A DNA stretch of 64,000 bases from Alphaproteobacteria bacterium (GTDB lineage Bacteria; Pseudomonadota; Alphaproteobacteria; Rhodobacterales; Rhodobacteraceae): the NCBI GenBank assembly GCA_024280735.1, contig JAJRPO010000058.1, positions 1-64,000 of the forward strand, given 5' to 3'. Under the pieces are notes generated by a model. It did not search any database, was not told the origin of the DNA, and saw only the letters and a program-made list of their open reading frames with translations. The position numbers and the translations under genes are program-made. This document shows positions 2,455 through 45,984 of the stretch, piece after piece. Position 1 is the first letter of the stretch. Each line of letters opens with the position of its first letter.

Positions 2455-3156
2455 ATGATGTTTCGGAGTTTTGTGCTGGCAGGGGTGGCGGCTGCGGTGT
2501 TGGCTGCCTGTAGTTCTGAAAAAGACACGCAGCCAAGTATTCAAAGCGTGGCCATCGGTTTGGCCAAAGCCAAGTTTGGTAAAAAGAATAAAGTAGAGAA
2601 AGCGGATGAAACAGCGGCCAAGCCGCAACAACTGCCCCGCGCCGCGCTGGAGCAATACGGCAAGCCGGTGATCTATGTCGGCGTTCCCCGTCTGGGCAGC
2701 AATCTGCCGGCGGTTCAGGTGGCGGTTAACGGACCGTATCAAACATATTTGGGGGGTGACAAAGCCAGCGTTACCCTGCGCAACGGCATGATTACCGCAA
2801 CACGGGGCCAGTTTGTTGATCTGTTTGCGCAAGAACTGTCCCTTAGCCCGCGACAGATATTTTATGGCGGCGGTTTTCCGAAAACCTATACCCGCACCCA
2901 GCGGCATTTGAATGGCGAGGGCAAACTGACCACCGCAGAATATACCTGCGCCATTGCACCCGCTGAGGCAGACGAGAGGATCACGGTATTTGACCGCACG
3001 GTCACAGTACGTAAGTTTTCCGAGTTGTGCCGAAATCCGGTGCGTGCGTTTCAGAACAGCTATTGGATTGATCGCCGCGCCCAGCGGGTCTGGAAAAGCC
3101 ATCAATCGATTAGCCAGCCCGTCGGGCATATGATTATTCAGCTGGTTATACCGTAG
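2455..3156 (+). CDS. yjbF: YjbF-like (GfcB-type) lipoprotein
   Basis: A 233-residue lipoprotein: hydrophobic leader followed by the lipobox LAAC (Cys at about 19) and a small acidic/Lys-rich linker. The body, with GKPVIYVGVPRLG and a TLRNGMITATRG stretch, matches the YjbF/GfcB family, the partner of YjbH in extracellular polysaccharide export. Two ATG codons stand in tandem (2455 and 2458), and the ribosome site GGAG lies inside the end of yjbH, so translation is probably coupled. The stop codon TAG (3154-3156) is also the left edge of a 52-bp palindromic repeat, so the end of this gene is defined by repeat DNA. Confidence 0.8.
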   Translation: MMFRSFVLAGVAAAVLAACSSEKDTQPSIQSVAIGLAKAKFGKKNKVEKADETAAKPQQLPRAALEQYGKPVIYVGVPRLGSNLPAVQVAVNGPYQTYLGGDKASVTLRNGMITATRGQFVDLFAQELSLSPRQIFYGGGFPKTYTRTQRHLNGEGKLTTAEYTCAIAPAEADERITVFDRTVTVRKFSELCRNPVRAFQNSYWIDRRAQRVWKSHQSISQPVGHMIIQLVIP

Positions 3157-3204
3157 GGTGGGTGAAACCCACCGGTCCGGGTGGTGGGTTGGCACCCACC
3201 CTAC
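3153..3204. repeat. REP-like palindrome, long subtype, copy 1
   Basis: A 52-bp imperfect palindrome that starts GTAGGGTGGGTG and ends CACCCACCCTAC, with a further inner stem (AACCCACC / GGTGGGTT). It fills the gap between two convergent genes, and both of their TAG stop codons (3154-3156 on +, 3203-3201 on -) lie in its ends. A close copy is at 45105-45157, and shorter relatives are at 19358-19386 and 45955-45984. It may also work as a bidirectional terminator. Confidence 0.8.
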
Positions 3205-3842
3205 CGTCTTGGTGCCCGCCAACCTGCCTTGATTGCCTCTGCCTCGTCGCAAAACCAGCGTTCGCCTTTGGCGGTGTTGATGCGGGTGCGTTTGTACCAA
3301 GGCGACCACGGGGTGTGGTAGATGTGGCCGTTTGCGGTGATATTGCCCTTGATTGGGCAGCCTTTGGGGGCGACCTGTGCTGCGACGTTCCAGCGTTTGG
3401 CCCGGAATTCCCAAGGCGGCTGCGCGGGGCCGCGCCATATCCCTAGCTTTGCGATTTTGGCGTTATCTTGGTCTGCCTCATATTCGTCGGAAAACTTCAG
3501 GAACGCCCAAGCCATGCCTTTGGCCACCATCACCTGCGCCACGTCTTTGCCATCGGCAAAACATCGCGCCACAATGCGATTGTAGGGATCGACGGCCAGT
3601 TTTTCACAGGAGACAGTAGCGTTATTGGTCAAGGCAACGAGGGTGCTGGTCGCGGCCTCGCCGCAAGGCCATCGTTTGCCGCGCTCAGTTGTGCATTTCT
3701 GACCCGATTCCGGCGCATCAATGCCGTTGATCCGAAAGGTTGTGCCATTCAAAACCAAGGTATCGCCGTCGATTACGCGCAGGTCAGCGGCCCACAGGGG
3801 GGGAGAGATCAAGGCGAGCAGGAGGATCAGGAAATATCGCAT
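3201..3842 (-). CDS. Secreted thermonuclease-family (SNase-like) nuclease
   Basis: A 213-residue protein with a clear signal peptide (residues 1-18, ending PLWA). The staphylococcal-nuclease fold follows: VIDGDTL with D25/D27, then RINGIDAPE with R37, D42 and E45, and later DPYNRIVARCF supplying the second arginine. These match the Ca-binding and catalytic residues of the family. The C-terminal 70 residues beyond the fold carry KGCPIKGNI and several Trp and have no function I recognise. It should act in the periplasm or outside the cell on DNA or RNA. It is convergent with the YjbF-like gene, and its TAG stop is formed by the palindrome at 3153-3204. Confidence 0.85.
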   Translation of the reverse strand: MRYFLILLLALISPPLWAADLRVIDGDTLVLNGTTFRINGIDAPESGQKCTTERGKRWPCGEAATSTLVALTNNATVSCEKLAVDPYNRIVARCFADGKDVAQVMVAKGMAWAFLKFSDEYEADQDNAKIAKLGIWRGPAQPPWEFRAKRWNVAAQVAPKGCPIKGNITANGHIYHTPWSPWYKRTRINTAKGERWFCDEAEAIKAGWRAPRR

Positions 3843-3857
3843 GAGCTGGACGTAACA

Positions 3858-3890
3858 TGAACAAAAGGTTAAATCTTCATCTTTTGTTCA
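3858..3890. promoter_or_regulatory. Inverted repeat in the divergent nuclease/gltX promoter region
   Basis: A perfect 10-bp inverted repeat, TGAACAAAAG (3858-3867) and CTTTTGTTCA (3881-3890), separated by 13 bases. It lies in the 127-base gap between the divergent nuclease and gltX genes. It could be an operator or a hairpin in the 5' leader. About 6 bases downstream, TTAA-N7-CTAA (3897-3911) is one mismatch from a full CtrA box. Confidence 0.4.
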
Positions 3891-3969
3891 TTGGAGTTAA
3901 TTTTCTGCTAAGGCACAAAAATGACGCCGCTCTTGGCCTTATGCACGGCATTCGCTAAGAGGGGATAAA

Positions 3970-5313
3970 ATGAGCAAAGAGCGAGCGAATCCCATGACCA
4001 CCACCCGTTTTGCGCCCTCTCCCACGGGCTATATTCACATCGGCAACCTGCGCACGGCGCTGTTTAACTATCTGATCGCGCGCAAGGCGGGCGGCCAGTT
4101 TATTCTGCGGTTGGACGATACCGATCCGGTGCGCTCTAAACAAGAATATGTCGACGGGATCAAGCAGGATCTGGAATGGCTGGGGCTGACGTGGGACCGC
4201 GTGGAACGGCAATCTGACCGGCTGGAACGCTACAAAGCGGCGGCGGACGAGTTGCGTGCGGCGGGGCGGTTGTACGAGTGTTTCGAGACGCCGATAGAGC
4301 TGGACCTGAAGCGTAAAAAATTGCTGAACATGGGCAAGCCGCCGATTTATGATCGGGGCGCGCTGAACCTGTCGGACGCGGAAAAGACTGCTTTGCGCGA
4401 GGAACGGGGCGCCGGGCATTGGCGCTTCAAGCTGGATTTACAACGGATTGAATGGACGGATGGCATTCTGGGCGACCTGTCGATTGATGCGGCGAGCGTG
4501 TCTGATCCGGTGCTGATCCGCGGCGACGGGCAGTTCCTGTATACGCCTGCATCGGTTTGCGACGACATTGATTTTGGCGTCACTTACGTGGTGCGCGGCT
4601 CGGATCACGTAACCAACACCGCGACGCAAATCCAGATTATCGAGGCGCTGGGCGGCAAGGTTCCGGATTTTGCGCATCACTCATTGCTGACGGGACCACA
4701 GGGCGAGGCCCTGTCAAAACGGCTTGGCACTTTGGCACTGCGTGATTTGCGGGTCTCGGGATTGGAGCCGATGGCGGTTTTGTCGATGATGGCGCGGCTT
4801 GGATCATCAGAGCCGATTGAATTGCGCACCACGATGCAGGAGTTGATCGACGGGTTTGATTTGTCGAAATTCGGTGCGGCACCGACCAAGTTTGATGTGG
4901 CAGATTTGACGCCGCTGACGTCGAAATATGTGTCTGGCCTGTCTTTTGAGGTTATGGCAGATGAATTGGCGGCACTGGGTGTTCCCGCAGATATTGCGCC
5001 TGCATTCTGGGATGTGGCCCGCGATAATATCGATGTGCGCGGTGATGTGGCGCAGTGGTGGACGCTGTGCCGTGACGGGGCAGAGCCGCTGATCGACGCG
5101 GAGGATGCGGAGTTCGTGGCCGTTGCGAAAACCCTGCTACCAGCTGCGCCCTGGACCGGCGAGAGTTGGGGGGAGTGGACCAAGGCGGTGAAGGCCGAGA
5201 CGGGCCGCAAAGGGCGTGGTTTGTTTATGCCGTTGCGCAAGGCGCTGACGGGGATGCAGCACGGGCCGGATATGTCGCGGTTGATGCCGTTGCTCGGTAA
5301 TGTGAAGCTTTAG
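3970..5313 (+). CDS. gltX: Glutamate--tRNA ligase
   Basis: A 447-residue class I aminoacyl-tRNA synthetase that charges tRNA with glutamate in the cytoplasm. The HIGH-type motif is PSPTGYIHIG near the N-terminus. The KMSKS-type loop is LSKRLG, preceded by GPQGEA. YECFETPIELDLKRK and KPPIYDR are typical of the shorter second GluRS class of alphaproteobacteria, which often coexists with another gltX and may prefer tRNA-Gln (family knowledge, not shown here). Two starts are possible: ATG 3970, which has GAGGGG 5 bases upstream, or ATG 3994, which gives the usual family opening MTTTRFAPSPTG. I keep the first because of its ribosome site. Confidence 0.95.
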   Translation: MSKERANPMTTTRFAPSPTGYIHIGNLRTALFNYLIARKAGGQFILRLDDTDPVRSKQEYVDGIKQDLEWLGLTWDRVERQSDRLERYKAAADELRAAGRLYECFETPIELDLKRKKLLNMGKPPIYDRGALNLSDAEKTALREERGAGHWRFKLDLQRIEWTDGILGDLSIDAASVSDPVLIRGDGQFLYTPASVCDDIDFGVTYVVRGSDHVTNTATQIQIIEALGGKVPDFAHHSLLTGPQGEALSKRLGTLALRDLRVSGLEPMAVLSMMARLGSSEPIELRTTMQELIDGFDLSKFGAAPTKFDVADLTPLTSKYVSGLSFEVMADELAALGVPADIAPAFWDVARDNIDVRGDVAQWWTLCRDGAEPLIDAEDAEFVAVAKTLLPAAPWTGESWGEWTKAVKAETGRKGRGLFMPLRKALTGMQHGPDMSRLMPLLGNVKL

Positions 5314-5352
5314 GCGCTAGGGCCAGTGCGATGTGATGAATGTCCACAGGCC

Positions 5353-5904
5353 CTAAACAACCTCGATAGAAAACTCTTCGATTTGGGCGTCTACTAGCGC
5401 GGTTTCGGCTGCGGTGAGGGATTGCGCACGCGGATAAATCGGGGTGGCGCGGTCGTTGCGGATTTTGACCTGCCAGTTGGTTGTGCTACGGAAAAAATTG
5501 GTGACGCCTTCTTCTCCGAACTCACATAGAAAACCCTGCACAACGCAGTCCAGATAGCTGAGAAGCACATGTTTGCCGGTGGCTTTGGTGGCCACAAAAT
5601 CAGGGTCAGCACGGTACATCTGAATCGCGGTGGCGTTTGGGTGATTGATTTCAGAATCCGCCAATCGTGCGCGGGTATAGGCCTGCTCGCGTTCGTCGAG
5701 ATCATCCCAGCTGAGCGGAGCGACGTCGGCAATCAGCCCTTGGATGGTGCTGCCTGTATGGGGTTCCACACTGAGAAAACAGACATCGCGCCGATTGGAG
5801 GGCACCCAATGGCGCCGCCAACCCTGCACCGTTGCGCGCCGTATGTTGGGGTAGCTGTGCGTCGCCGTGTTCACCAAAGACCCGTAACCAAAAAAGCTGG
5901 TCAT
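5353..5904 (-). CDS. Gamma-glutamylcyclotransferase-fold (GGCT) protein
   Basis: A 183-residue cytoplasmic protein that opens with FFGYGSLVN (residues 4-12), the substrate-loop signature of the AIG2/GGCT superfamily. DEREQAYTR supplies the expected catalytic glutamate. Family members release 5-oxoproline from gamma-glutamyl compounds, but many bacterial homologues have unknown substrates. The gene starts 5 bases after the M48 lipoprotein gene on the same strand, so they are probably co-transcribed. No link between the two activities is evident. Confidence 0.75.
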   Translation of the reverse strand: MTSFFGYGSLVNTATHSYPNIRRATVQGWRRHWVPSNRRDVCFLSVEPHTGSTIQGLIADVAPLSWDDLDEREQAYTRARLADSEINHPNATAIQMYRADPDFVATKATGKHVLLSYLDCVVQGFLCEFGEEGVTNFFRSTTNWQVKIRNDRATPIYPRAQSLTAAETALVDAQIEEFSIEVV

Positions 5905-5909
5905 CGCGG

Positions 5910-6650
5910 CTACCAGCGAATGGGCGCGCGGCGGCCCTGTGCGCGGGCGGTGCGGATTTCACCAGCAACAGCAGTTGCGTTGGCCACACGTTCGCCGGAT
6001 GACGGATGCGTGCTTAGGAAGCTAGACGAGCCGCCAGTGCGCGCCAATTCTTGCGCGCCTTTAGCGGCGTTATATCCTGCGCGGTCGGCGATGTGGACGG
6101 CGATTGTATCGGCTTGCAGCTCGAATTTTTTGGAAAACGCGCGGCCGCCGATTTGGGCACCGAGGTCAAGGCCTACGCTGGCATCGCCACCGCCAGCCGC
6201 TACCAGCACGCCGAGCAGGATCGCGCCAACGGCTTGGTTTTGGCGCGACTGTATCAGGTGAGAAGCGATTTGATGCCCAGCTTCATGGCCCAGAACAAAG
6301 GCAAGTTCATGGTCATTTTGGATTTGCAACAACATGTTGGAATTGAAAGTAATCACCGGGCGCCCATCCTTGCCGATGCTTTGAAAGGCGTTGGCGGGTT
6401 CCTTGGGGTCATTGCGCACGACGATTTGAAAATCGCAGAAACTGGCCGGTTTACTGGGATGGATTGAGCGGCAGGCGCTCTCGGCCACAGGTTCAACACG
6501 CGCGGCGACGCGGCGATAATTGGCGATGGCGGTTTGCAGATTGCCAGTGGCAGCAGGGGCCTGTTGCAGCGGTTTTGAGGGGGGCGGCGGTTCTGGAATG
6601 CAACCGGCCAGGAGGAGAACCGCTAGGCTGAGAGTGAGTAGTTGACGCAT
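5910..6650 (-). CDS. M48-family metalloprotease lipoprotein
   Basis: A 246-residue protein with a lipoprotein leader (LLLAGC, Cys 17) and a Pro-rich linker. The Zn protease core has HEAGH at 122-126 and the third ligand region KFELQADTIAVHIADRAGYN. A late STHPSSGERVANA segment is typical of the M48 peptidases of the LoiP/YggG and BepA group. It should work in the periplasm, anchored to a membrane, in envelope protein quality control. The length fits the short single-domain members. The first gene of a probable two-gene unit with the GGCT-fold gene. Confidence 0.85.
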   Translation of the reverse strand: MRQLLTLSLAVLLLAGCIPEPPPPSKPLQQAPAATGNLQTAIANYRRVAARVEPVAESACRSIHPSKPASFCDFQIVVRNDPKEPANAFQSIGKDGRPVITFNSNMLLQIQNDHELAFVLGHEAGHQIASHLIQSRQNQAVGAILLGVLVAAGGGDASVGLDLGAQIGGRAFSKKFELQADTIAVHIADRAGYNAAKGAQELARTGGSSSFLSTHPSSGERVANATAVAGEIRTARAQGRRAPIRW

Positions 6651-6696
6651 GGTATCCCCTATCTGTTGCCCAAGATGTAACCGTGCGAAACGGTGC

Positions 6697-7224
6697 TTAC
6701 AAGGGTGCGGTTTGCAGATTATCCCAAACTATTATCAGGTTTTCCGATTTCCAGATCGGGCCTGCGTCAATGAACTGGCCGATTAGTTTTCCGCCCATGG
6801 CTTGATAAAAAGCCAAGGCCGGTGTGTTGCCTTTGGCTGTAGCCAATGCGGCAGTGCTGAAGCCATCTGCAAGCAACTGATGAAATGCCGCCTGTAGCAG
6901 CTGTTTTCCGATACCCGCGCCCTGGCACTTGCGATCCACATAGAGGTGTTTGACCTCTGGGCGGGTGCCAAACACCGGATTGGTTGCAGGGCCAAAGAGG
7001 GTGAAACCGACGATGGTATTGGCTTGGGTCGCGAGCAGAATATGGTGTTGTGGGCGTGGCGTGTTTAGGTGCCTCTCCCAGGTGTTCAGGCGATGGGTCA
7101 CATCCAGTTTGGCCAGAATCTCAGGTGGCGCGAGGTTCTTGTATGTCTCGCGCCAAACTGAGGCATGTAGGGTTGCAATGGGTCTTGCGTCGCTTGCGAC
7201 GGCACTCCGAATGGTGGTTGGCAT
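6697..7224 (-). CDS. GNAT-family N-acetyltransferase
   Basis: A 175-residue GNAT acetyltransferase. The acetyl-CoA binding motif A is visible as VKHLYVDRKCQGAGIGKQLL (pattern Q-x-x-G-x-G), followed by ALAFYQAMGGKLIGQ, the usual motif B. The N-terminus IRSAVASDARPIATLHASVWRETY resembles the RimI-like 'GNAT family' proteins found throughout Rhodobacterales. The substrate cannot be told. It starts 7 bases after the argF stop codon on the same strand, so it is probably the last gene of the argD-argF unit; whether it takes part in arginine metabolism is unknown. Confidence 0.82.
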   Translation of the reverse strand: MPTTIRSAVASDARPIATLHASVWRETYKNLAPPEILAKLDVTHRLNTWERHLNTPRPQHHILLATQANTIVGFTLFGPATNPVFGTRPEVKHLYVDRKCQGAGIGKQLLQAAFHQLLADGFSTAALATAKGNTPALAFYQAMGGKLIGQFIDAGPIWKSENLIIVWDNLQTAPL

Positions 7225-7231
7225 TATAGGC

Positions 7232-8158
7232 TTAGACCCCCAAACACCAGCGCATCACGGCCTTTTGCGCGTGCAGACGGTTTTCGGCTTCGTCAAAAAT
7301 CACCGAACTGGGGCCGTCCATCACACTCGAGGTGACTTCCTCGTCACGGTGCGCGGGCAGGCAATGCATGAACAGGGCGTCCTCCTTGGCTTGGCCCATC
7401 AAGTGATCGTTAACTTGGTAAGGTTTCAGCAGATTGTGGCGACGCTGGCGGGTGGATTGGCTGTCGTGCATGGAAACCCAAGTATCGGCGACCACCAGAT
7501 CGGCACCAGCGACCGCCTTTTGCGCGTCGCGCTCGATTGTGACGTTAATGCCTTGCGCGCGGGCAAGCGCGATGAATTCGGATTCAGGATCAAGCGAGGG
7601 CGGGCCTGCAAAGGTGAAGTCAAAGCCGAATTGCCCAGCCGCGTGCAGAAAGCTGGCGCAGACGTTGTTGCCGTCGCCGGTCCAGACGACTTTCTTGCCT
7701 TTGATCGGGCCGTTGTGTTCCTCAAAAGTCATCACGTCGGCCATGATCTGGCAGGGATGCGTGCGGTTGGTTAACCCGTTGATGACGGGAACCGAGGCGT
7801 ATTCTGCCAGCTCCTGCAATACACTTTCCTCGAATGTGCGGATCATGATCATATCGACATAGCGCGACAAAACGCGGGCCGTGTCGGCGATGCTCTCGCC
7901 GTGGCCCAGCTGCATATCGGCACCTGACAGCACCAGAGTTTGGCCACCCATTTGGCGCACGCCGACGTCAAAAGACACGCGGGTCCGGGTAGACGGCTTT
8001 TCAAAAATCAGCGCCACCATGTGGTTTTTCAGCGGTTGCTCGGCGTCGGGTGTGCCTTTGGGCTGGCCTTTGCGGGCGTCCTTCATGCTGCGGGCGTGAT
8101 CGATCATGTGGCGCAGATCGGCGGGATCGGTGGTGTGGATGTCCAGAAAATGGTTCAT
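7232..8158 (-). CDS. argF: Ornithine carbamoyltransferase
   Basis: A 308-residue enzyme that makes citrulline from ornithine and carbamoyl phosphate in arginine synthesis. The carbamoyl phosphate loop is [21 protein letters not shown] is present, and the ornithine/catalytic loop is MHCLPAHR. The open frame runs much further upstream, to 8644, but that part overlaps argD. The start is ATG at 8158 ([11 protein letters not shown]), which overlaps the argD stop by 4 bases (ATGA), a classic coupled junction. Length is normal for the family. Confidence 0.96.
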
Positions 8159-9333
8159 AATGTGGCCTCGATTGCTGTGGCGGCTTGGTCCAACCTTGCC
8201 ACCGCCTCTTTGATGTCGTCGCTTGAGATGTTCAGGGGCGGCAGGATACGGATGACGTTGTCGCCGCCGGGGATTGTCAGCAGTTGGACGTCGTATCCGG
8301 CGTGGACCACATCCATATTGGTGACTTTGCATTTGATGCCAAGCATCAGGCCGGCTCCGCGTACCTCCTCGAACACCTCGGGGTGACTGGCGACCAAACC
8401 TTCCAGCGATTGGCGAAACAGGCCGGATTTTTCTGAGACTTGCGCCAGAAATGCGTCGTTGGCGATGATGTCCATGACCTTGGAGCCAACAGCGCAGGCC
8501 AACGGGTTGCCGCCGTATGTGGTGCCGTGGCTGCCCGCGACCATGCCAACGGCTGCGGCCTCGGTTGCCAGGCAGACGCCAAGGGGAAAGCCGCCGCCGA
8601 TGCCTTTGGCCACGGCCATAATATCGGGGGTGACGCCGGACCATTCATGGGCGAACAGCTTGCCGGTACGGCCGACGCCGCATTGGATTTCGTCCATAAT
8701 CAGCAGCAGGCCGTGTTCTTCACACAGGGCGCGGATGTCGCGCATGAATTGATCAGTGACGGGGATAATGCCGCCTTCGCCTTGGACCGGTTCTATGATA
8801 ATTGCGGCAGTCTCATCGTCGATTGCCATCTTAAGGGCCTCAAGGTCGTGCAAAGGAACTTGCGTGAAACCTTCCAACATTGGCCCAAAGCCTTTGGTCA
8901 GCTTTTCCGCACCGGCAGCGGAGATCATGCCCAAGGTGCGGCCATGAAAGCTCTGCTCAAAAGCAATCATTTTATAGCGTTCAGGCTGGCCGTTATGGCT
9001 GAAATATTTGCGCGCCATTTTGACCGCGCATTCCATCGCCTCGGTGCCGGAGTTGGTGAAAAACATTGTATCCGCAAAGGTGCTTGCCACCAACCTGTCC
9101 GCCAGCGCTGTTTGGTTGGGAATGTGATAGAGATTGGAGGTATGCCACAGTTGGCTTGCCTGTTGTTGCAGGGTTTCTACAAGTTCAGGATGGGCATGCC
9201 CAAGCGCGTTCACCGCAATTCCGCCGCCTATGTCAAGGAAGCGTCGGCCCTGATCATCCACCAACCAGCTGCCTTCGCCTTTGACGAAAGTAAGGTTTGC
9301 ACGGGCGTATGTGGGTAGAATTGCGGGTATCAT
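8155..9333 (-). CDS. argD: Acetylornithine/succinyldiaminopimelate aminotransferase
   Basis: A 392-residue class III PLP aminotransferase. [34 protein letters not shown] and [11 protein letters not shown] are conserved. Asp in [15 protein letters not shown] and the PLP lysine in [13 protein letters not shown] are in place. It acts in arginine (and possibly lysine) synthesis. It is the first gene of an argD-argF-GNAT unit. The ribosome site is AAGGAAAACCGCG before ATG. About 80 bases upstream of the start is a run of ten G (9412-9421), and beyond that the terminator of the LysM gene. Confidence 0.96.
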
Positions 9334-9442
9334 CGCGGTTTTCCTTAAGTAAAGTAGCGAGCCATTTGTCTGGGTGATTCTGTCTGATTGATTCTGTGGC
9401 TCAAGTCAATTGGGGGGGGGGATGTTTAGGGACAACAAAACA

Positions 9443-9463: not shown

Positions 9464-9585
9464 AGAAAATCAGCGTCGGCGTCGCGACGGGATAAGCGAT
9501 GTTGTCAGATTAAACATAGGGGACCGATAACTCATCAATTCCTAATAGTCTAGAGCTTAGACCGAAAATCGCCGTGAAGGCTTTA

Positions 9586-11883: not shown

Positions 11884-11961
11884 CGTGATGCGCCCTTGGG
11901 TGTTTGTTACTGGCACTGAAGTAGAGTGCATACCAGCGCAGTTCAAGGTTCTTTGTCGTTA

Positions 11962-12069
11962 AAGCGTTTCGAGTTCGTTTTGTATCATCTAAGCCACCGA
12001 GTGCACCCGTTTTACTAATGATGACACGCCCTAGATGATACACTGATCGAAATTGAACGCGAAACGCTC
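11962..12069. mobile_element. Small TA-flanked palindromic element (AGCGTTTCG family), copy A
   Basis: A 108-bp element with ends AAGCGTTTCGAG and (opposite strand) GAGCGTTTCGCG, plus an inner inverted match GTATCATCT / AGATGATAC. It is flanked by TA at 11960-11961 and 12070-12071. The ends match the copies at 25212-25311 and 46350-46450, but the interior differs, so it is a diverged member or a sister family. It lies in the gap between the antiporter and the DUF2892 gene and encodes nothing visible. It looks like a non-autonomous transposon using TA targets. Confidence 0.7.
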
Positions 12070-12172
12070 TATTCTTGCCGCAAGGCACCTGTTTGCGAAA
12101 ACGTGATTTCACTTATCATCACAGATGGGTTATAGATTGTCAGACATCACAATGGTTGACGGGAGCGCCGGA

Positions 12173-18443: not shown

Positions 18444-18711
18444 CTAGGGGCAGGACCCCTTAATCCTGCGCTTCTGGTTTGCGCGAATTTCCTTTCTGAG
18501 CAGGCGTAGGCGCGCCGGATATATGAATATATTCAAGGGCCTACAACGTACTCAGGGAGGAAATTTGCCAAATCCAACGGACGCTGTTTTCCCTACACCT
18601 CAGAGGCATGGCACGCTTGGATATAGGCCCGCTATGTCCGGCGCGCTCGTTGCCCCTGATATTTCGGTAAAACAGTGCCAGAGATGCAGGATTAAGGGGT
18701 CCTGACCCTAG
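18444..18711. mobile_element. TA-flanked element with 34-bp inverted ends (CTAGGG family)
   Basis: Ends CTAGGGGCAGGACCCCTTAA (18444 onward) and, on the other strand, CTAGGGTCAGGACCCCTTAA (18711 backward) match over 34 positions with four differences. The 200-base interior has a weaker inverted match (around 18505-18525 and 18632-18652) and no gene. The unit fills the space between the F0 operon and the VOC gene. The TAG stop of the VOC gene (18710-18708) lies in its right end. It looks like a non-autonomous transposon. Confidence 0.65.
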
Positions 18712-19124
18712 CTTGATGCCCCTCCGGGCTGCGTGAGGGAGAGCTGCCAAGACACCCCGAAACGATCTGTGACCCAGCCGTAGTAGTCGTTAAACGGATA
18801 GCTGCCGATTGACGTAATGACCTGACCGCCGTCGCCGAGTTTGAAAAACGCATCATCCATTTCGATTTTATTTTCGCAGCAAACCCAGAGCGTCGAGGCA
18901 GGGATAAAGGAGAAATCATGTTCCTGCACCGTGTCGAGGAAATAGATGTGCTGTGCGCCGATTTCCATACGGCCGCGCATAACGGTACCTTCGGCGCCCA
19001 CATCCTCTGGGCCGTAAAGCAGTAGTTGCGCGATGCGGGCGTTGTGGAACAGGGAGACATAGGTGGTCATCGCCTCCTCGGCGTTGCCTTTGAACATCAG
19101 CATGGGGGTTACAGTGGGGCGCAT
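18708..19124 (-). CDS. VOC-family (PhnB-like) protein
   Basis: A 138-residue glyoxalase-fold protein. MRPTVTPMLMFKGNAEEAM..YVSLF begins the fold in the way of the PhnB/'3-demethylubiquinone methyltransferase-like' VOC subgroup, and ..YYGWVTDRFGVSWQLSL closes it. Family members bind a metal and small ligands, often with unknown substrate. The start is ATG 19124, with GGAGG 7 bases upstream; the longer frame to 19163 has no site. The stop codon TAG comes from the inverted end of the element at 18444-18711, so the last residues (GGASS) may not be ancestral. Confidence 0.8.
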   Translation of the reverse strand: MRPTVTPMLMFKGNAEEAMTTYVSLFHNARIAQLLLYGPEDVGAEGTVMRGRMEIGAQHIYFLDTVQEHDFSFIPASTLWVCCENKIEMDDAFFKLGDGGQVITSIGSYPFNDYYGWVTDRFGVSWQLSLTQPGGASS

Positions 19125-19357
19125 TGGGGACCTCCGTTTGCATTTGATTTCAGAATGCCACATTTTGACAAATAGTCAAAGCTCGGTTGGTAATGCGGTT
19201 TTGCGGCTGGCGCGGCGCGAGCAGCAATGTTCGGAAGTCCGGGCAGTCCAAAGCGCTTGCTTTCAAAACTGGTTGGTTTGGCCGCGATGAAAAATTGCCG
19301 GGCTTTTACCATTTGAACAGGCCAATTACCCCGGCAATAAATATATGATGCGGAAAG

Positions 19358-19386
19358 GTAGGGTGCGTGGTTTCCACGCACCGCTA
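19358..19386. repeat. REP-like palindrome, short subtype, copy 1
   Basis: GTAGGGTGCGTGG (19358-19370), TTT, CCACGCACCGCTAG: an 8-bp perfect stem (GTGCGTGG/CCACGCAC) with near-symmetric flanks. It lies about 10 bases past the ettA stop and matches the copy at 45955-45984. It may serve as the ettA terminator. Confidence 0.65.
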
Positions 19387-23473: not shown

Positions 23474-23547
23474 CTCATCTTTTTGCCATATTGGCGACAA
23501 AGGGTTTTGTGATAGAATGATGCCAAAGCAGAGAGTTGGGCGAAAAC

Positions 23548-25053
23548 ATGTATTTGACACGTAGGGCATTGATTGCAGGGCTTTTGGCGGGGGTTTCGCT
23601 GCCAGCATTTGCGGGCGCTCCGGTGCGGTCCTTGCGCCCCGTACCGCGCCCTAAGGGCATCACAGCCAAATCCATCAAGAAACGCCACGAGGCCCCGGCG
23701 CTGGAGCAGATCTTGCAAGATGCAGGGCTGTCTGGCCGGATGAGTGTGGTTGTAGCGGATGCGGGTACCGGCAAAGTTCTGGAAAGCTATGGCGAAAATA
23801 CCGGCTTGCCGCCGGCCAGTGTGGCCAAAACGATCACCTCACTTTATGCGTTGAACCATCTGGGGACGGACTATCAATTCAATACACAAGTGGTGGGTAC
23901 GGGGCCGATTGTTAACGGTACGTTAAAGGGCGATTTGGTGCTTGTGGGCGGCGGTGATCCGCATCTGGACAGCGACGGCTTGGGTGCGCTTGCAGCACAG
24001 CTTAAGGCACGCGGGATTAAACGGATTACCGGTAAATTTAGTGTCTTTACCAAGGCTCTGCCGTATCAGCGCTCAATCGATGCAGGGCAGCCAGATCATG
24101 TGGGCTATAACCCGTCGATTTCCGGCCTGAATCTGAATTTCAACCGTGTCTATTTTGAGTGGAAACGCACCGCCAAAGGCTATGCGGTGACGATGGACGC
24201 ACGCGGTGAACGCTTTCGTCCGTTGGTGCGCGGAATCAAGATGAAAATTGTGAACCGCGAGGCCCCGTTGTTCACCTATAAGAAGAGTGGCAGCAGCGAA
24301 AACTGGACTGTGGCACGACCCGCCCTTGGCAAAGGTGGCGGGCGTTGGTTGCCGGTGCGTGAAACGGGCGGCTACGGTGGCGAGGTGTTCCGCGCTTTGG
24401 CAGCCCAGCACGGGGTGAAATTGCCGCGTGGCAGAACCGTGGCATCCATTCCCGCAGGCACTGTGTTGGCGCGCGGCGACAGCGGGCCTATCTGGAAAAT
24501 ACTGCGCGGGATGCTGAAATATTCAACCAACCTAACAGCAGAGGTTTCCGGCCTGTCCGCCAGTCGCGCGCGGGGCAGCAAAGCCAGCAATTTGGCAGCC
24601 TCGGCGCGGGAAATGACGGCATGGGCGCAGGGGGCTTATGGAATTGGCAGTGCCAAGTTTGTCGATCACTCAGGGCTGGGCGACAAGTCGCGAATTTCGG
24701 CGCGCCAGATGACAAATGTGCTGGTGAAAACCGGCTGGAACGGGCCGCTGCGCCCACTGCTAAAGGACATTCGGCTGGTGAATTCCAAAGGCCGCAAAGC
24801 GCCGATTGCCGGCGTTTCCGTGGTGGCTAAAACCGGCACGCTGAATTTCACCAGCGCTTTGTCGGGCTATATTGATTGCCCAAACGGGCGCAAACTGGCG
24901 TTCACGATTTTCACCGCCGATCTGACGCGCCGCAGCAAAATTTCCAAAGCGCAGCGCGAGCGACCAGAGGGTGGCCGCAGTTGGGGCAAACGCGCCAAGC
25001 GGATGCAGCAAAAACTGCTGCGCCGTTGGGCGTTGGAATATGGCGTCGCTTAG
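23548..25053 (+). CDS. dacB: D-alanyl-D-alanine carboxypeptidase/endopeptidase (PBP4, DacB)
   Basis: A 501-residue periplasmic penicillin-binding protein. The N-terminus MYLTRRALIAGLLAGVSLPA has twin arginines and an export leader. The three active-site motifs are SVAK (in LPPASVAKTIT), STN (in MLKYSTNLTAE) and KTG (in VVAKTGTLN). The large insert between the first two motifs is the PBP4 (class C) feature. It trims or opens peptidoglycan cross-links. ATG 23548 is preferred to TTG 23536. The TAG stop (25051-25053) is made of a TA plus the first G of the mobile element that follows, so the C-terminus was probably reset by that insertion. Confidence 0.93.
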   Translation: MYLTRRALIAGLLAGVSLPAFAGAPVRSLRPVPRPKGITAKSIKKRHEAPALEQILQDAGLSGRMSVVVADAGTGKVLESYGENTGLPPASVAKTITSLYALNHLGTDYQFNTQVVGTGPIVNGTLKGDLVLVGGGDPHLDSDGLGALAAQLKARGIKRITGKFSVFTKALPYQRSIDAGQPDHVGYNPSISGLNLNFNRVYFEWKRTAKGYAVTMDARGERFRPLVRGIKMKIVNREAPLFTYKKSGSSENWTVARPALGKGGGRWLPVRETGGYGGEVFRALAAQHGVKLPRGRTVASIPAGTVLARGDSGPIWKILRGMLKYSTNLTAEVSGLSASRARGSKASNLAASAREMTAWAQGAYGIGSAKFVDHSGLGDKSRISARQMTNVLVKTGWNGPLRPLLKDIRLVNSKGRKAPIAGVSVVAKTGTLNFTSALSGYIDCPNGRKLAFTIFTADLTRRSKISKAQRERPEGGRSWGKRAKRMQQKLLRRWALEYGVA

Positions 25054-25369
25054 GGGCTGTTGACGTTTACCAGTTCGCACTGGCGCTTGCTCATTTTGTG
25101 GTCAGTGTGATGCGTTTGTCCGCAGCGCTATGGATAGCGGAAGGGAAAATGCGCACTCTGAGCGCAAAATGAGCCGCGTCCCTTCGGGATTTCCCAAAAA
25201 TCCGTCACTTAAAGCGTTTCGACTTTGTGTTGAAACGCCTTTTCCCGGTCTTTCGCTGACGCTCAAATAGGAAATGCGTTGTTTGATGAAATGACAAAAG
25301 TCGAAACGCTTTAAGTGACGGATTTTTGGTTGAAACCAGTGCGAACTGGTAAACGTCAACAGCCCCTAA
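25050..25369. mobile_element. Composite element with 34-bp perfect inverted ends, carrying a nested element
   Basis: The ends TTAGGGGCTGTTGACGTTTA... (25050-25083) and their exact inverse (25336-25369) form 34-bp perfect terminal repeats. A second perfect 33-bp inverted repeat (25194-25226 and 25297-25329) is nested inside, and a 10-bp pair GCTCATTTTG / CAAAATGAGC (25089-25098, 25165-25174) adds a further stem. Without the inner insertion the core would be one long hairpin with TA at its centre. There is no reading frame for a transposase. It fills the gap between the convergent dacB and DUF2330 genes. Confidence 0.82.
25212..25311. mobile_element. Small TA-flanked palindromic element (AGCGTTTCG family), copy B
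   Basis: A 100-bp element with ends AAGCGTTTCGACTTT, flanked by TA (25210-25211 and 25312-25313). It shares with copy C the inner blocks TTGAAACGC, CCGGTCTTTCG, CTCAAATAGGAA and TGCGTTGT in the same order. It has landed in the TA at the dyad centre of the larger element 25050-25369. Confidence 0.85.
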
Positions 25370-38904: not shown

Positions 38905-39083
38905 GGGGCCAGTTTCGGTTAATTCACGGGGATTGCCAAGGCAAAGCTTAGCACGGTTTGGTTATCAAATTGTAACATGGCGCGTTTGCGAGATAATATC
39001 ATGGAAAATGTCGCGGCGGGGATTGTCTTGGCCACAAGTTTGGTATTCTTCTTACAAAATAACTGCCAACCTGAGAGGCCCGC

Positions 39084-39719: not shown

Positions 39720-39767
39720 CGCAGGGGGGAAACCGCGCTAAAGGAGTGCCGACCTGAAGGAAAAGCC

Positions 39768-40298
39768 ATGAAAACCGTCAAAGACTACATCCGCACCATC
39801 GTTGATTTCCCCCATGAGGGCATCATGTTTCGCGACGTGACTACCCTGTTCGCCGACCCGCGCGGCTTTCGTATGGCAGTGGACCAGATGTTGCACCCCT
39901 ATGCGGGGATGCGCATCGACAAGGTGGTGGGACTGGAGGCGCGCGGCTTTATCCTTGGCGGTGCCATTGCGCATCAATTGACCGTTGGTTTTGTGCCCAT
40001 CCGCAAGAAAGGCAAACTGCCCGGCGCGGTGATTTCCGAATCTTATACGCTGGAATACGGCGAGGCGGTGATGGAAATCCACGACGACGCTATTGCAGCG
40101 GGGGAGCGCATTTTGGTGGTCGATGATTTGCTGGCCACGGGCGGCACCGCCGCCGCTGGCATTAAGTTGATTGAACGGCTGGGCGGTGAAATAATTTCAA
40201 CCAGTTTCATCATCGACCTGCCCGAATTGGGCGGGCGCAAGGTGCTGGAAGACATGGGTATGGAAGTGAATGTATTGTGCGAGTTTGAGGGGGAGTAA
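39768..40298 (+). CDS. apt: Adenine phosphoribosyltransferase
   Basis: A 176-residue enzyme of purine salvage, making AMP from adenine and [26 protein letters not shown] is the family opening, [17 protein letters not shown] follows, and the PRPP loop is [14 protein letters not shown]. The flexible loop IRKKGKLPG and the YGEAVMEIH segment are also as expected. AAGGAAAAGCC precedes the ATG. It probably shares a transcript with the HD gene and ends at the palindrome 40312-40373. Confidence 0.96.
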
Positions 40299-40311
40299 AC
40301 GGCTCTGACTT

Positions 40312-40373
40312 GCCCCGCACTTGATGCGGGGCCGCCTGGCAATAACGGCGAGGCCCCGCATCAAGTGCGGGGC
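40312..40373. repeat. Cruciform-type palindrome, also likely bidirectional terminator
   Basis: Two perfect 22-bp arms, GCCCCGCACTTGATGCGGGG-CC (40312-40333) and its inverse (40352-40373), separated by 18 bases. Each arm is itself nearly palindromic (CCCCGCA/TGCGGGG). It lies between convergent apt and the PLP decarboxylase gene, and its right arm contains the TGA stop (40363-40361) of the latter and codons for its last residues. Confidence 0.8.
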
Positions 40374-41515
40374 GTTTGAGTGTTTAACATATTTACCGTC
40401 ACTGCCAGAATATCGCCATAGCCGTTGAATCGTGTGCAGGTGGCTCCAACGTAAGCCCCCATGCCGGAAAACAGGATGTAATCTTCCTCCGCCATGTTTG
40501 CTGGCAGGGGTAAGGGTTCAGGTAATTTATCCAGCGAGTCGCAGGTCGGGCCAAACGCTACTCGGGGTATGGGTTTACCGCCGCGTGTCTCGCCGCTCGG
40601 TGACAGGCAGCTAAAGCGGTGGTTGGTGTCAAGGTCGCGAAATTCCGTCAGCCCGCCGTAAATTCCGTCATTCAGATAAACCGACCCGTTGTCGTGGATC
40701 GATTTTATCCGCGCCGCCAGTGAAAACGCATCCGACACCATGGCGCGACCCGGTTCGCACAGCAGTTCTGGTGCATCTGCACCAAAGCTGGCTTGGGTCG
40801 CGGATTTTATCGCTTTGAAAATTTTGGGCAGTTCCGGCACTCTGCCTGAGCGCTGCGCGGGAAATCCGCCGCCCACATTAAGGCGTTCCAACTTGACACC
40901 TGCATCTCGCGCCACATCTGCGCAGGCGGAAATATAACTGACCCAAGCTTGCGGATCATGGCATTGAGTGCCGGGGTGAAAGGTCATCGAGGTTCTGAAG
41001 CCCGCTGCCGCCGCACGTTTCAGCAATTCAGTGGCTTTCTCCGCATCCGCACCAAATTTCTCGCCGAAATCATAGGCGGCCCCTTTGATTGGCAGTTTCA
41101 AGCGCACAGCAATTTCACAGCCCTTGGGCAGAGCAGCCGCCAATTTGTCAAACTCGCCAAAGCTGTCGACGGAATAGGATTGCAGCCCTTTGGAAACCGC
41201 ATAAATGATTTCGGCCTTGGAGCGTACGGGGTTGTTGTAATGCAGCATTGCACCGGGGGCCTGTGCCAAAACCAGATCGATTTCCACCGGAGAGGCCACG
41301 TCATAGGCTGTTACTCCTGCTGCGTGAAGATTGGAAATGACCGCCGCGTTTGCATTGGCCTTGACCGCATAAGACACCAACCCCGGAAACCCTGCGGCGA
41401 AGGCCCTTGCGGTGTTGTGCAAAACCTCGGGGCAGAAAAATGCCACAGGTCTATCGGGGTGACGTGCTGTTAGAAATTCCTGTGGTGTCGCCCAAATTGT
41501 TTTGTCTGTTTTCAT
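40361..41515 (-). CDS. PLP fold III ornithine/lysine-type decarboxylase
   Basis: A 384-residue alanine-racemase-fold (group IV) decarboxylase. The PLP lysine is K52 in YAVKANAN. HPGTQC, LNVGGGFPAQ and the phosphate-binding CEPGRAMVS are present, and the active-site cysteine region reads FGPTCDSLDKL. The enzyme should make putrescine (or cadaverine) from ornithine (or lysine). The start is ATG 41515, close to a GGGCAA site. It is divergent from an Lrp-type regulator that very likely controls it. The last residues PRT and the stop come from the palindrome 40312-40373, so the end may have been altered. Confidence 0.88.
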   Translation of the reverse strand: MKTDKTIWATPQEFLTARHPDRPVAFFCPEVLHNTARAFAAGFPGLVSYAVKANANAAVISNLHAAGVTAYDVASPVEIDLVLAQAPGAMLHYNNPVRSKAEIIYAVSKGLQSYSVDSFGEFDKLAAALPKGCEIAVRLKLPIKGAAYDFGEKFGADAEKATELLKRAAAAGFRTSMTFHPGTQCHDPQAWVSYISACADVARDAGVKLERLNVGGGFPAQRSGRVPELPKIFKAIKSATQASFGADAPELLCEPGRAMVSDAFSLAARIKSIHDNGSVYLNDGIYGGLTEFRDLDTNHRFSCLSPSGETRGGKPIPRVAFGPTCDSLDKLPEPLPLPANMAEEDYILFSGMGAYVGATCTRFNGYGDILAVTVNMLNTQTPRT

Positions 41516-41579
41516 TTGCCCATGCCTCTTTCCCCCTAGTATGGGGTGGTGGCGAGTCATTATGACTCGGCACTTCGGG

Positions 41580-41610
41580 AGTTATGTGTATAACTTACGG
41601 CATAATGCCG
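41580..41610. promoter_or_regulatory. Palindromic operator candidates between decarboxylase and Lrp genes
   Basis: Two adjacent dyads: AGTTAT-GTGT-ATAACT (41580-41595) and CGGCAT-A-ATGCCG (41598-41610). They lie in the 110-base divergent region just before the regulator, as expected for Lrp/AsnC binding and control of both genes. Confidence 0.55.
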
Positions 41611-41627
41611 AAAGTTAGGGTAATATG

Positions 41628-42059
41628 ATGGATGATATCGATCAACAACTGCTGAACGCTTTGGCAGAAAATGCCCGCCTGCCTGTGACCACGCTGGCGG
41701 GCAAGTTGGGTTTGGCCCGCACCACTGTTCAGGCACGCCTTGAGCGGCTGGAAAATAGTGGTGTCATTGCGGGCTATACCCTGCGCCTTGGGGCGCAAGC
41801 CGATGAGAAGCGTATTCGTGCCACGGTATTGCTGCAACTCGATCCGCGAACCGCACCAATGGTAGTGCAGCGTTTGAAAAGCATTGTGCAGGTTGAGCGG
41901 GCGGTGACGTCTTCGGGGCGGTTTGATCTGTTGTTGCAGATTGCAGCGCGAAGCACGGCGCGGCTGGATGAGATCTTGGATGAAATCGGTGGTATCAAGG
42001 GGGTTCGCTCCTCGGAAAGTCTGATCCATTTATCCGTGCGAATTGATCGGGGTGTTTGA
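41628..42059 (+). CDS. Lrp/AsnC-family transcriptional regulator
   Basis: A 143-residue DNA-binding regulator. The helix-turn-helix is in MDDIDQQLLNALAENARLPVTTLAGKLGLARTTVQARLERLENSGVI. The RAM ligand domain follows (TVLLQLDPRTAP, GRFDLLLQIAARSTARLDEILDEIGGIKGVRSSES). Two ATG codons are in tandem at 41625 and 41628; AGGG has better spacing to the second. The divergent PLP decarboxylase is the likely target, with an amino acid (ornithine, lysine or arginine) as effector; this is inferred from position. Confidence 0.9.
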   Translation: MDDIDQQLLNALAENARLPVTTLAGKLGLARTTVQARLERLENSGVIAGYTLRLGAQADEKRIRATVLLQLDPRTAPMVVQRLKSIVQVERAVTSSGRFDLLLQIAARSTARLDEILDEIGGIKGVRSSESLIHLSVRIDRGV

Positions 42060-42189
42060 AGAGTAAGATGCGCTCCGCGCGGGGATATTTAAAAGAACAA
42101 AGAAGATGTAAGGGGCGCGCGAGGCGGGGGTTTTCCTTGTAAGGTGGCTGTGTAATAAGCGCTGAAACACTTGAGGCGGGACCAGTACT

Positions 42190-45108
42190 ATGGCGATGGA
42201 AAAGAACTTTGATGCGGGCGCGGCAGAGCCAGCGATTTTTCAGAAATGGGAATCGGAGGGGGCGTTTAAAGCCGGGGCCAATGCGCGCGACGGGGCGGAA
42301 AGCTTTTGCATCATGATCCCGCCGCCAAATGTGACAGGCGCGCTGCATGTGGGGCATGCGTTTAACAATACTTTGCAGGATATTCTGGTGCGCTGGCACC
42401 GGATGCGCGGCTTTGATACACTGTGGCAGCCCGGGCAGGATCACGCGGGTATTGCCACCCAGTTGCAGGTGGAAAAGATGCTGGCGGCGCAAGGCCTGCC
42501 GAGCCGCGCCGAAATGGGGCGCGAGGCGTTTACCGACAAGGTTTGGGAGTGGAAGGAGCAATACGGGTCCACCATTATCAACCAGCTGAAACGGCTTGGC
42601 GCGAGTTGCGACTGGGAGCGCAACGCCTTTACCATGGACGAGGTGTTCCATGATGCGGTGCTGAAGGTTTTTGTCGATCTGTATAACAAAGGTCTGATCT
42701 ATCGCGGCAAGCGCTTGGTCAATTGGGACCCGCATTTTGAAACCGCGATTTCGGATCTGGAAGTCGAGAACATCGAGATCGACGGCCACATGTGGCATTT
42801 CAAATACCCGCTCGCCGGGGGGGCGGAATATGAATATATCGAGAAGGACGACGATGGCATTGTGACCCTGCGCGAAATGCGCAATTACATTTCAATCGCC
42901 ACTACGCGTCCTGAAACCATGTTGGGGGATGGCGCGGTTGCGGTGCATCCTGATGATGAGCGTTACGCGCCAATTGTTGGCAAGCTGTGTGAAATTCCGG
43001 TGGGTCCCAAAGAGCATCGCCGCCTGATCCCGATTATTACCGACGAGTACCCCGATATGGATTTCGGTTCTGGTGCAGTGAAAATCACCGGCGCCCATGA
43101 TCTGAACGACTATGGCGTGGCCAAGCGCAATAATATTCCGTTGTATCGACTGATGGACACCCGCGCGGTGATGCGCAGCGACGGGCTGGATTACGCGGCT
43201 GCGGCGACGCGCGCCAAGGAGATCGCCGAGGGGTCGGATTTTGCCGATATTGAGATCGATTTGATCAACCTGATTCCCGATGCATATCGTGGCTTGGATC
43301 GTTTTGAAGCGCGCAAAGCCGTGATTGCGGACATCGACGCCGAAGGCCTGATGATCATGGTTGAGGACAAAAAGATCATGCAACCGTTCTGCGACCGCTC
43401 CAAGGTGGTTATGGAACCGATGCTGACCGATCAGTGGTATGTGGATGCGGCGAAACTGGCGGTTCCGGCGTTGGAAAAGGTCAAAGACGGCAGTGTCAGC
43501 ATCATGCCCGAAAGCGGCCGCAAGGTGTATTTCCACTGGATGGAAAACATCGAGCCGTGGTGCATTTCGCGGCAGTTGTGGTGGGGGCATCAAATTCCGG
43601 TTTGGTATGGTCCCCGCAAGGTTGGCGACCAGATTGTGTTTCAAGAACCGTTCAAAGAGTTTTGCGCGGCCAATGAAAATGATCTGCTAAACCAAACATC
43701 ATCTTATTACGGTGGCACGGTGATGCTGCTGGATGAAAAACCCGAAATGACCGGCATGCGGGTTGGCGGCGGTATGGGGATGACTGGAACCGTACCGATG
43801 TGGCGCGATCCTGATGTGCTGGATACTTGGTTCTCCTCGGGTCTCTGGCCAATTGGGACGCTGGGGTGGCCGAATGACACGGAGATGCTGGATAGGTACT
43901 TCCCCACCTCGACCCTGATCACCGGTCAGGACATTCTGTTCTTCTGGGTGGCGCGGATGATGATGATGCAGTTGGAAGTGACTGGCAAGATTCCCTTTGA
44001 TACGGTCTATCTGCACCAGTTGGTGCGCGACGAGAAGGGCGTGAAAATGTCCAAGACTTTGGGCAATGTGATTGACCCATTGGTGATGATTGACGAATAC
44101 GGCGCGGATGCCGTGCGTTTTACCATGACGTCGATGGCCTCTCTTGGTGGGTCGCTGAAACTGTCGATGGAACGGGTGCAGGGCTATCGCAATTTCGGCA
44201 CCAAGCTGTGGAATGCGGCGCGGTTTGCCGAGATGAACGACTGTAAGCCGTCGCCCGATTTCGATCCCGCGCAGGTGACGCAAACTGTCAATAAATGGAT
44301 TGTTGGCGAGACCGCCCGTGCCGGTGCCATGGTTGACAGCGCCTTGCAACAATACCGTTTTAATGACGCAGCGAACGGGCTGTATGCCTTCGTGTGGGGC
44401 AAGGTTTGCGACTGGTATGTGGAATTGGCAAAGCCGCTGTTTCAGGGCGAGGACGCGGCGGCCAAGGCGGAAACGCAGGCGACAATGGCTTGGGCGATTG
44501 ATCAATGCCTGATCTTGCTGCATCCAATCATGCCCTTCATCACCGAACAGCTGTGGGGCGATATTGCCGAGCGTCCCAAGATGCTGGTGCATACGGATTG
44601 GCCTGAGTACGGTGCCGATCTGAGCAACGCCGATGCGGACCGTGAAATGAACTGGGTGATTACCCTGATTGAACGCGTTCGTTCGCTGCGCACCGAAATG
44701 CGGGTTAACGCCGGCGCAAAAATCCCTGTGGTTCAGCTGGAGCTGGACGCGGCAGGGCAGGCGGCGCTTGCCAACAACTTGCCGATGATCCAGCGCCTTG
44801 CGCGGATCGAGAGCCTGACTGTGGCATCCGAGGCCCCCAAAGGCTCGATCACTTTGCCGGTGGAGGGGGGGTCTTTCTGTCTGCTGCTGGCAGATGTAAT
44901 TGACGTGGCCGCTGAAAAGGCGCGCCTGACCAAGGCCATGGACAAGCTGACCAAGGAAATGGGCGGCATTAAAGGCAAGCTGGCAAACGTAAAATTCACC
45001 GCCAAAGCACCGGAACATGTGGTCGCCGAGAACCGCACGCGGCTGGTGACGGCAGGCGAGGAAATGGCGAATTTGGAAGCGGCGCTGAAACGGCTGGCGG
45101 CGTTGTAG
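42190..45108 (+). CDS. valS: Valine--tRNA ligase
   Basis: A 972-residue class I synthetase. The HIGH motif is in [21 protein letters not shown]. The editing (CP1) domain has [10 protein letters not shown] and [12 protein letters not shown]...DYGVAKR. The KMSKS motif is [11 protein letters not shown]. The C-terminal coiled coil ([20 protein letters not shown]) is ValRS-specific. The length is normal. The TAG stop (45106-45108) is formed by the first bases of a 53-bp palindromic repeat. The gene follows the Lrp gene on the same strand but is 130 bases away. Confidence 0.97.
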
Positions 45109-45157
45109 GATGGGTGCCAACCCACCAATCGAGGCGGTGGGTTGGCACCCATCCTAC
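45105..45157. repeat. REP-like palindrome, long subtype, copy 2
   Basis: A 53-bp palindrome from GTAGGATGGGTGCC to GGCACCCATCCTAC, with an inner stem CAACCCACC / GGTGGGTTG. It is closely related to 3153-3204. The valS stop codon TAG is its second to fourth bases. It probably also ends the valS transcript. Confidence 0.82.
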
Positions 45158-45182
45158 GATCTGAAAAATAGGGGGCCTTCCT

Positions 45183-45947
45183 GTGTCTGTCAAACAATCC
45201 GACCGAATTCGAACCTTCCTTAAAGGCATCGAAACCGGTGATCCGGCGGCGGTAGCTGTGGTTAATGAGGCGAAATACATTCAGCATAATCCCCACACCA
45301 GTGAGGGAAACGAAGGGCTGGCGGTGCTGTTCAAACGCCTGTCCAAAACCGCGCCCAAAGTAACGATGCTGCGGGGTTTTGATGATGGGGATTATGTTTT
45401 TGCCCATATGGAATATGATTTTTCCAGCGTGAAAATCGGCTTTGAGGTGTTTCGCTTTGAGGACGGCCAAGCGGTGGAGCATTGGGATAATATTCAGCCG
45501 AAACAAGGGCCGAATATCTCTGGCCATAGTATGATTGACGGGGCAACCGAAACCACCGACCTGGCGCTGACTGGGGAAAATCGGGAAATTGCGCGTGTTT
45601 TTGTGACCGAGGTTCTGATTGATCGACAGCTTGACGCGCTGGAAACCTATATTGATGGCGAAAACTTTACCCAACATAACCCGGAGGTCGCGGATGGCTT
45701 ACCCGCTTATCGCGCTTACCTGAATGCAATTTTCAAGGATGGGTTCAGGGTCAACTATAGTCACCTCCACCGCGTGTTGGCTGAGGGTAATTTTGTGCTT
45801 TGTGTCAGCGAAGGATTTCTGGAAGACGTTCACACGTCTTTCTATGACCTCTTTAGAATATCCGGCGGTAAAATCGCGGAACATTGGGATACCATCGAGA
45901 CAGTGCCACCGCGCGATGAATGGCTGAACCAGAATGGCAAATTTTAA
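45183..45947 (+). CDS. Tandem NTF2/SnoaL-like domain protein
   Basis: A 254-residue cytoplasmic protein with two copies of the SnoaL-like fold. The first is about 6-110 (YIQHNPHTSEGNEG ... EVFRFEDGQAVEHWDNIQ). The second is about 130-245 (FTQHNPEVADGLPAYRAYL ... DLFRISGGKIAEHWDTIE). Both end in the A-E-H-W-D-x-I motif of the family, so they arose by duplication. Such proteins bind small ligands or act as isomerases; the function is unknown. It uses a GTG start at 45183 with AGGGGG upstream. Confidence 0.75.
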   Translation: MSVKQSDRIRTFLKGIETGDPAAVAVVNEAKYIQHNPHTSEGNEGLAVLFKRLSKTAPKVTMLRGFDDGDYVFAHMEYDFSSVKIGFEVFRFEDGQAVEHWDNIQPKQGPNISGHSMIDGATETTDLALTGENREIARVFVTEVLIDRQLDALETYIDGENFTQHNPEVADGLPAYRAYLNAIFKDGFRVNYSHLHRVLAEGNFVLCVSEGFLEDVHTSFYDLFRISGGKIAEHWDTIETVPPRDEWLNQNGKF

Positions 45948-45954
45948 CGCTGGC

Positions 45955-45984
45955 TTAGGGGTGCGTGGGGACCACGCACCCTAC
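45955..45984. repeat. REP-like palindrome, short subtype, copy 2
   Basis: TTAGGGGTGCGTGG, GGA, CCACGCACCCTAC: the same short type as 19358-19386. On the minus strand it encodes the last nine residues (VGCVVPTHP) and the TAA stop of the broken DUF457 gene. Confidence 0.72.

Follow-up and report, generated by a model that had tools for sequence, protein, structure and literature searches.

Two kinds of small repeat element border the stop codons of genes in a Rhodobacteraceae genome

In a 64,000-nucleotide stretch of DNA from a Rhodobacteraceae bacterium (GenBank assembly GCA_024280735.1, contig JAJRPO010000058.1, positions 1 to 64,000; hereafter the window), the TAG stop codons of six genes coincide exactly with the borders of small repeat elements. 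Two kinds of element are found at these borders, namely miniature transposons that duplicate a TA dinucleotide and pairs of GTAG-type repetitive extragenic palindromes (REPs). Both kinds are small and non-autonomous, and very probably they reach stop codons by different routes: the former by inserting at the target YTAR (Y, pyrimidine; R, purine) and rebuilding the stop contained in this motif, the latter through a TAG that belongs to the head of the REP itself. With a G+C content of 54%, the window belongs to contig C74 in an assembly of 2.63 Mb that is 71% complete, and its valS has its nearest named relatives among the Rhodobacteraceae. Genes were called with our own hexamer caller, and background frequencies were obtained from 20 hand-picked stretches of the same genome (393 kb, 418 called genes).

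Five TAG stops at palindrome borders had been listed in an earlier note on the window, and all five were confirmed by the sequence and the list of open reading frames (ORFs). E1 (3153-3204), a GTAG-REP pair, or REPIN, of the form GTAG-GGTGGGT...ACCCACC-CTAC, lies between the convergent genes for a YjbF-like lipoprotein (yjbF, 2455-3156, plus strand; TAG 3154-3156) and a thermonuclease-like protein (3201-3842, minus strand; TAG 3203-3201) and is the source of both stops, one from each REP head. A second GTAG-REP pair, E2 (45105-45157), follows valS (42190-45108, plus strand), whose TAG at 45106-45108 is again a REP head. The remaining two stops are borders of miniature transposons: the 266-bp E3 (18445-18710, target CTAG) provides the TAG (18710-18708) of a VOC-family gene (18708-19163, minus strand), and the 318-bp E4 (25051-25368, target TTAA), a family A element with perfect ends in a convergent gap of 6 nt, provides that of dacB (PBP4; 23536-25053, plus strand; TAG 25051-25053). 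A sixth case had been overlooked: the TAG (5355-5353) of a gene at 5904-5353 on the minus strand (the 5353 gene) coincides with the border of a family A mini element 38 bp long (5318-5355, target CTAA). In a mechanical scan of the window for inverted repeats of the form TAGG...CCTA (length 31-420 bp, no more than one mismatch in 12), four were identified, each with a gene stop at one or both borders; Rfam at gathering thresholds gave no match in the window. TAG is the stop codon of 23/60 genes called there. The two genes that had been added to the set as stopping inside a palindrome do not belong to it: the palindrome around the decarboxylase stop (TGA, 40363-40361) has no TA-G border, and the DUF457-like ORF runs through a single REP and stops at TAA at its distal end.

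E3 and E4 carry long terminal repeats with TA on both flanks, and E3, E4 and the elements of families A (TAGGGCCTGTGGACATTCATC end) and B (~104 bp, TARAGCGTTTCGACT ends) all have terminal inverted repeats and lengths below 450 bp. Further copies of family A are dispersed over the genome, as are copies of family B. The empty target of the complete family A and E3 elements was CTAG, TTAG, TTAA or CTAA, i.e., YTAR in 10/10 with TA duplicated, and YTAR was also the target of 9/11 complete non-nested family B elements, counts favoured by genome search patterns that began with Y (three mismatches allowed for family A, one for family B). Duplication of four bases was rejected for family A on inspection, as the left and right four-base flanks are unlike in several copies. 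When the element was cut out and one TA kept, dacB (TAA), the VOC gene (TAG) and the 5353 gene (TAG) all retained a stop. Family B elements are nested inside several family A elements (25210-25313 within E4, 25051-25368; also in loci L252, L250 and L265), so that family A copies seem to have spread while carrying B. Several contigs of assembly G000 (C2, C11, C55, C64, C82 and C86) begin or finish close to a family A element, which suggests near-identical recent copies of this family.

Transposable elements of the IS5 family of insertion sequences (ISs) have YTAR as their target. This motif consists of a pyrimidine followed by TAA or TAG, and any TAA or TAG stop that follows a pyrimidine would be a target site at which IS5-type miniature elements may insert, duplicating the TA. 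Because an open frame cannot hold an in-phase YTAR, any border stop that is in phase at a target of this kind is the old one. The element starts with a purine, and therefore the left TA plus this purine again gives TAG or TAA; the right TA would retain the remainder of the old stop, and the insertion would come at no cost to the gene. Selection against insertions in coding sequences and promoters would then confine most survivors to short gaps between convergent genes, in which stops may make up many of the available targets and are often the only one. The earlier proposal that a border stop arises where an element with a 5' G inserts at TA stands for the TA-duplicating elements, extended to any 5' purine; for families A and B the transposases are presumed to be IS5-type.

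Genome-wide counts are in line with this scheme. All complete family A and E3 elements found were on a stop codon (10/10), as were 16/23 when one-ended copies were included, several of the misses having lost their other border at a contig edge; 15/23 would already give P = 3.5e-5 against a background of 24% and P = 0.002 against one third. For family B, 6/8 counted elements were on a stop, two of these stops being those of called genes shorter than 60 aa; the CTAT-target copy (on a stop), the copy at 46348 (judged to lie inside a called gene), the composite 11960-12071 and the nested copies were left out of these eight. Together, the complete TA-duplicating elements (eight of family A or E3, eight of family B) were on a stop in 14/16 cases, compared to 24% of non-coding YTAR sites in the background (147/609; binomial P = 1.6e-7), which upholds the earlier impression that such cases are more frequent than chance. 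Two complete elements examined afterwards and kept outside the 16, on contigs C84 and C11, were both on stops. The share of non-coding background sites that are stops was 33% for CTAG (35/105) and 18% for TTAA, and among YTAR sites at most 60 nt from a gene 3' end it rose to 53% (147/278).

Convergent gene pairs held 11/16 of the assignable complete elements (that of C84 lies in a tandem pair), compared to 50/398 background pairs (P = 3e-7). When each element was moved only inside its own intergenic gap, 10.4/16 were expected on a stop by chance and 14 were observed (P = 0.005), with 6.6 expected and 8/8 observed for family A and E3 without C84 and C11 (P = 0.07). As shuffling within the gap already predicts 10.4/16, the bulk of the stop excess arises from placement in short gaps, and the YTAR motif and the survival of elements in short convergent gaps therefore explain most of the effect; active targeting of stop codons is not needed for most of it.

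REPs follow a different logic. The REP search pattern left the base before TAG free and matched 27 sites in the genome, of which 24 had G at that position, so that GTAG is to be regarded as part of the REP element. The three matches without a preceding G showed no palindrome by eye, and neither did one of the 24 (C7 28635, a GTAGGGTGGGTG match at the stop of a gene for 499 aa); without the latter, 20 dispersed copies were counted. E1 and E2 are built of adjacent imperfect palindromes with their units paired in inverted orientation. Cutting out these elements with one TA kept deprives yjbF, valS and the nuclease gene of their stops (39, 22 and 5 extra codons, respectively), and duplication of TA consequently fails to account for REPs. 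A single TA rule for all elements is thereby ruled out: unrelated families do share border stops, but REPs carry GTAG as their own head and the TA is not a target duplication. This head would be recognized by REP transposases, and once a pair had come to lie against a gene end, by whichever route it arrived, the TAG of the head would act as the stop. GTAG-REP termini are described as often supplying TAG stops (PMC3733652, section 15), and the E. coli REP transposase is described as depending crucially on GTAG, which in two other systems is partly replaceable (PMC8266576). In contrast to the TA-duplicating elements, REPs overall showed no significant excess on stops over random placement (4/20 vs 16/156 non-coding GTAG sites, P = 0.14), and one of the four is the stop of a called gene for 84 aa. 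An excess was confined to the GGTGGG subtype, including GATGGG (4/7 vs 0/13 others, P = 0.007), a pattern noticed after the fact. A short IS200-like Y1 transposase (PF01797) with a 134-aa open frame was seen at L231:1477-1878 and was not recognized as a REP-associated tyrosine transposase (RAYT).

Outside this genome, BLAST located the E3 end on the plasmids of numerous alphaproteobacteria, with 108 matches in 95 records. Thirty stretches were sampled, about one per distinct site among the matches listed (60 of the records), and 26 were counted after L325, L327, L328 and L332, which have no annotated genes, had been dropped. E3-type borders were preceded by C or T in 25/26 (23 C, 2 T), a figure inflated by BLAST queries that included this base, and the end lay beside annotated IS5 transposase genes in 7/26. 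With one border per element examined, the border was exactly an annotated gene stop in 4/26 (a TetR gene of Pseudosulfitobacter pseudonitzschiae, hypothetical protein genes of Pseudosulfitobacter sp. and Sphingomonas hankookensis, and an HTH regulator gene of Nitratireductor thuwali), which is about the rate given by CTAG availability (35/105). Misses included borders in Phaeobacter (7 nt past the stop) and Agrobacterium (6 nt past the stop). The epimerase gene annotated at L341:893-1822 on a Loktanella plasmid has its stop 26 nt within an E3-type element, out of phase. Scanning for elements with 16-base arms and at most two mismatches found three (34-36 bp) in 270 kb of same-genus loci and none in 1.69 Mb around valS of other alphaproteobacteria, a scan that diverged or gapped copies would escape. 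Since such copies would go unseen and Phaeobacter does have an E3-type element, this null shows only that dense loads are not the general state in those genomes. By pattern, the end of family A is also present in three viral contigs, in which neither a second end was found nor a transposase spotted on visual inspection.

These numbers bear on how far stop codons are sought out. At its widest, landing on stops would be a general, selectable strategy of IS5-type miniature elements with a YTAR target, with a gene-end preference beyond motif availability and a whole-genome load that builds up at convergent stops while proteins remain unchanged; as a whole, this appears unlikely. Preference of the insertion machinery for stops, or for a state of the gene end such as terminating transcription complexes, would accommodate the per-gap excess of the 16 elements and the subtype bias of the REPs, but the per-gap excess of family A and E3 alone is not significant and the plasmid borders meet stops about as often as CTAG sites do, and we consider such a preference rather improbable. 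It is still less to be expected that the elements are retained at gene ends for a role as terminators or in the 3' structure of mRNAs, the stop overlap being a by-product. They are indeed inverted repeats at convergent gene ends, and REPs near stop codons are said to reduce translation in E. coli (PMC12306157), but this would leave the exact coincidence of border, stop and YTAR target unexplained.

Protein ends were compared with relatives that lack the repeat. The end of YjbF falls on the same codon in 8/8 relatives shown, with TAA, TGA or TAG as the stop, and ValS ends at the same codon (the same leucine) in its two closest relatives (G010 and G015), with the other 12/14 ending 1-2 residues later. 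The end of DacB agrees within one residue in 10/11 relatives, including G010 (EYGVA followed by TAG), and L217 is several residues longer. For the VOC protein, the one good relative (G010) has the same length and a TAG stop, the only other match being too distant. Both usable relatives of the nuclease are one residue longer, and in other loci no nuclease was found beside yjbF. Outside the window, 20 of the 22 border-stop genes of at least 100 aa were covered by a Pfam scan, and in 17/20 the Pfam model was matched to at most three positions from its end; a GH16 model was matched to within 11 positions, and two cases were uninformative (a partial His_Phos_1 and an N-terminal TetR domain). From these sequence comparisons, the proteins appear to retain their C-termini in the cases compared. 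The view of the earlier note, that insertion inside genes made new stops and re-set C-termini, is highly improbable: it can point to the decarboxylase tail and the DUF457-like ORF, which do finish within repeats, and to the slightly shorter nuclease, ValS and possibly 5353 proteins, but it conflicts as a general effect with the ends kept in relatives, the Pfam completeness, the stops retained on element removal and the impossibility of an in-phase YTAR within an open frame.

Several observations weigh against the scheme of YTAR rebuilding and REP heads. Availability leaves the small per-gap excess unexplained, and the target counts draw on search patterns anchored on Y. Two of the 11 complete non-nested family B elements have a non-YTAR target, one of these on a stop, and the background stretches also contain a B-like element (L302 5605-5709, target TTAG; included in no count) that is not on a stop. 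No autonomous element for families A or B was found in the plasmids searched, the genome itself being incomplete. For the REPs, no clear RAYT was found in the 71%-complete assembly, where the only matches to PF01797 were a short IS200-like protein and a partial one. Finally, the product of the 5353 gene is ~7 residues shorter than the only relative found, a distant one (54-55% identity).

Both kinds of element have known counterparts. GTAG REPs and REPINs (Di Nocera 2013, PMC3733652; Nunvar 2010, PMC2817692) share the GTAG head, the paired inverted units, sites near gene 3' ends and the TAG of the head as a stop, and the Haemophilus REPs GTAGGGTGGGTCTTGACCCACC and GTAGGGTGGGCTTcAGCCCACC have a GGTGGGT-type palindrome very close to that found here. 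Differences are that only ~20 copies are present here and that no clear RAYT accompanies them in the incomplete genome; the comparison with relatives adds that yjbF and valS have kept their old stop positions. E3 has the same outer terminal repeat (TAGGGTCAGGACCC) and TA borders as IS5 elements annotated as ISRhsp4-type (ISKpn12-type in another record), but at 266 bp it is too short for a transposase gene. MITEPsy1 of Pseudomonas syringae (PMC3189936), a miniature inverted-repeat transposable element (MITE), is likewise short, with terminal inverted repeats and a YTAR-like target (CTAG or YTAA); it differs in sequence and in a reported 4-nt duplication, where only TA is common to both flanks in several copies here, and the text compared does not mention a coincidence with stop codons. 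QMITE2 of Coxiella (PMC5896051) is also a miniature element at a gene 3' end, but it is reported to give EnhC 33 C-terminal residues in one strain, whereas ends are kept in the cases compared here. Two known kinds of element thus meet gene ends, and the rule that YTAR contains a stop which insertion rebuilds was not found stated in a literature search, of partial coverage, on stop codons and IS, MITE or REP elements.

If a target motif holds a stop and the first base of the element rebuilds it, a transposon family could accumulate in a compact genome with little harm, and the rule may apply to other IS families with TA-centred targets. Stop-codon usage would also be affected, as in the change of dacB from TAA to TAG, provided that the joined site represents the original sequence. 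For annotation, a gene that finishes at a repeat border may often be intact.

Other repeats in the window do not add to the set. Single GTAG REPs of the GGTGCG subtype are present at 19358-19386 (plus strand), where there is no called stop, and at 45956-45984 (minus strand), where the DUF457-like ORF reads through to its TAA. The family B element at 46348-46452 (target TTAG) has a gene stop at its left border only under one of two trainings of the gene caller. The palindrome with the decarboxylase stop (40312-40373, CCCCGCA...TGCGGGG) is of a different kind; it codes for the last residues of the enzyme, and the repeat may slightly lengthen the C-terminus here. Another hairpin family, TAAATATCCCC(C)GCGCGG, occurs in two of the background stretches (L308:14444-14501 and L316:1722-1774) and also flanks other elements.

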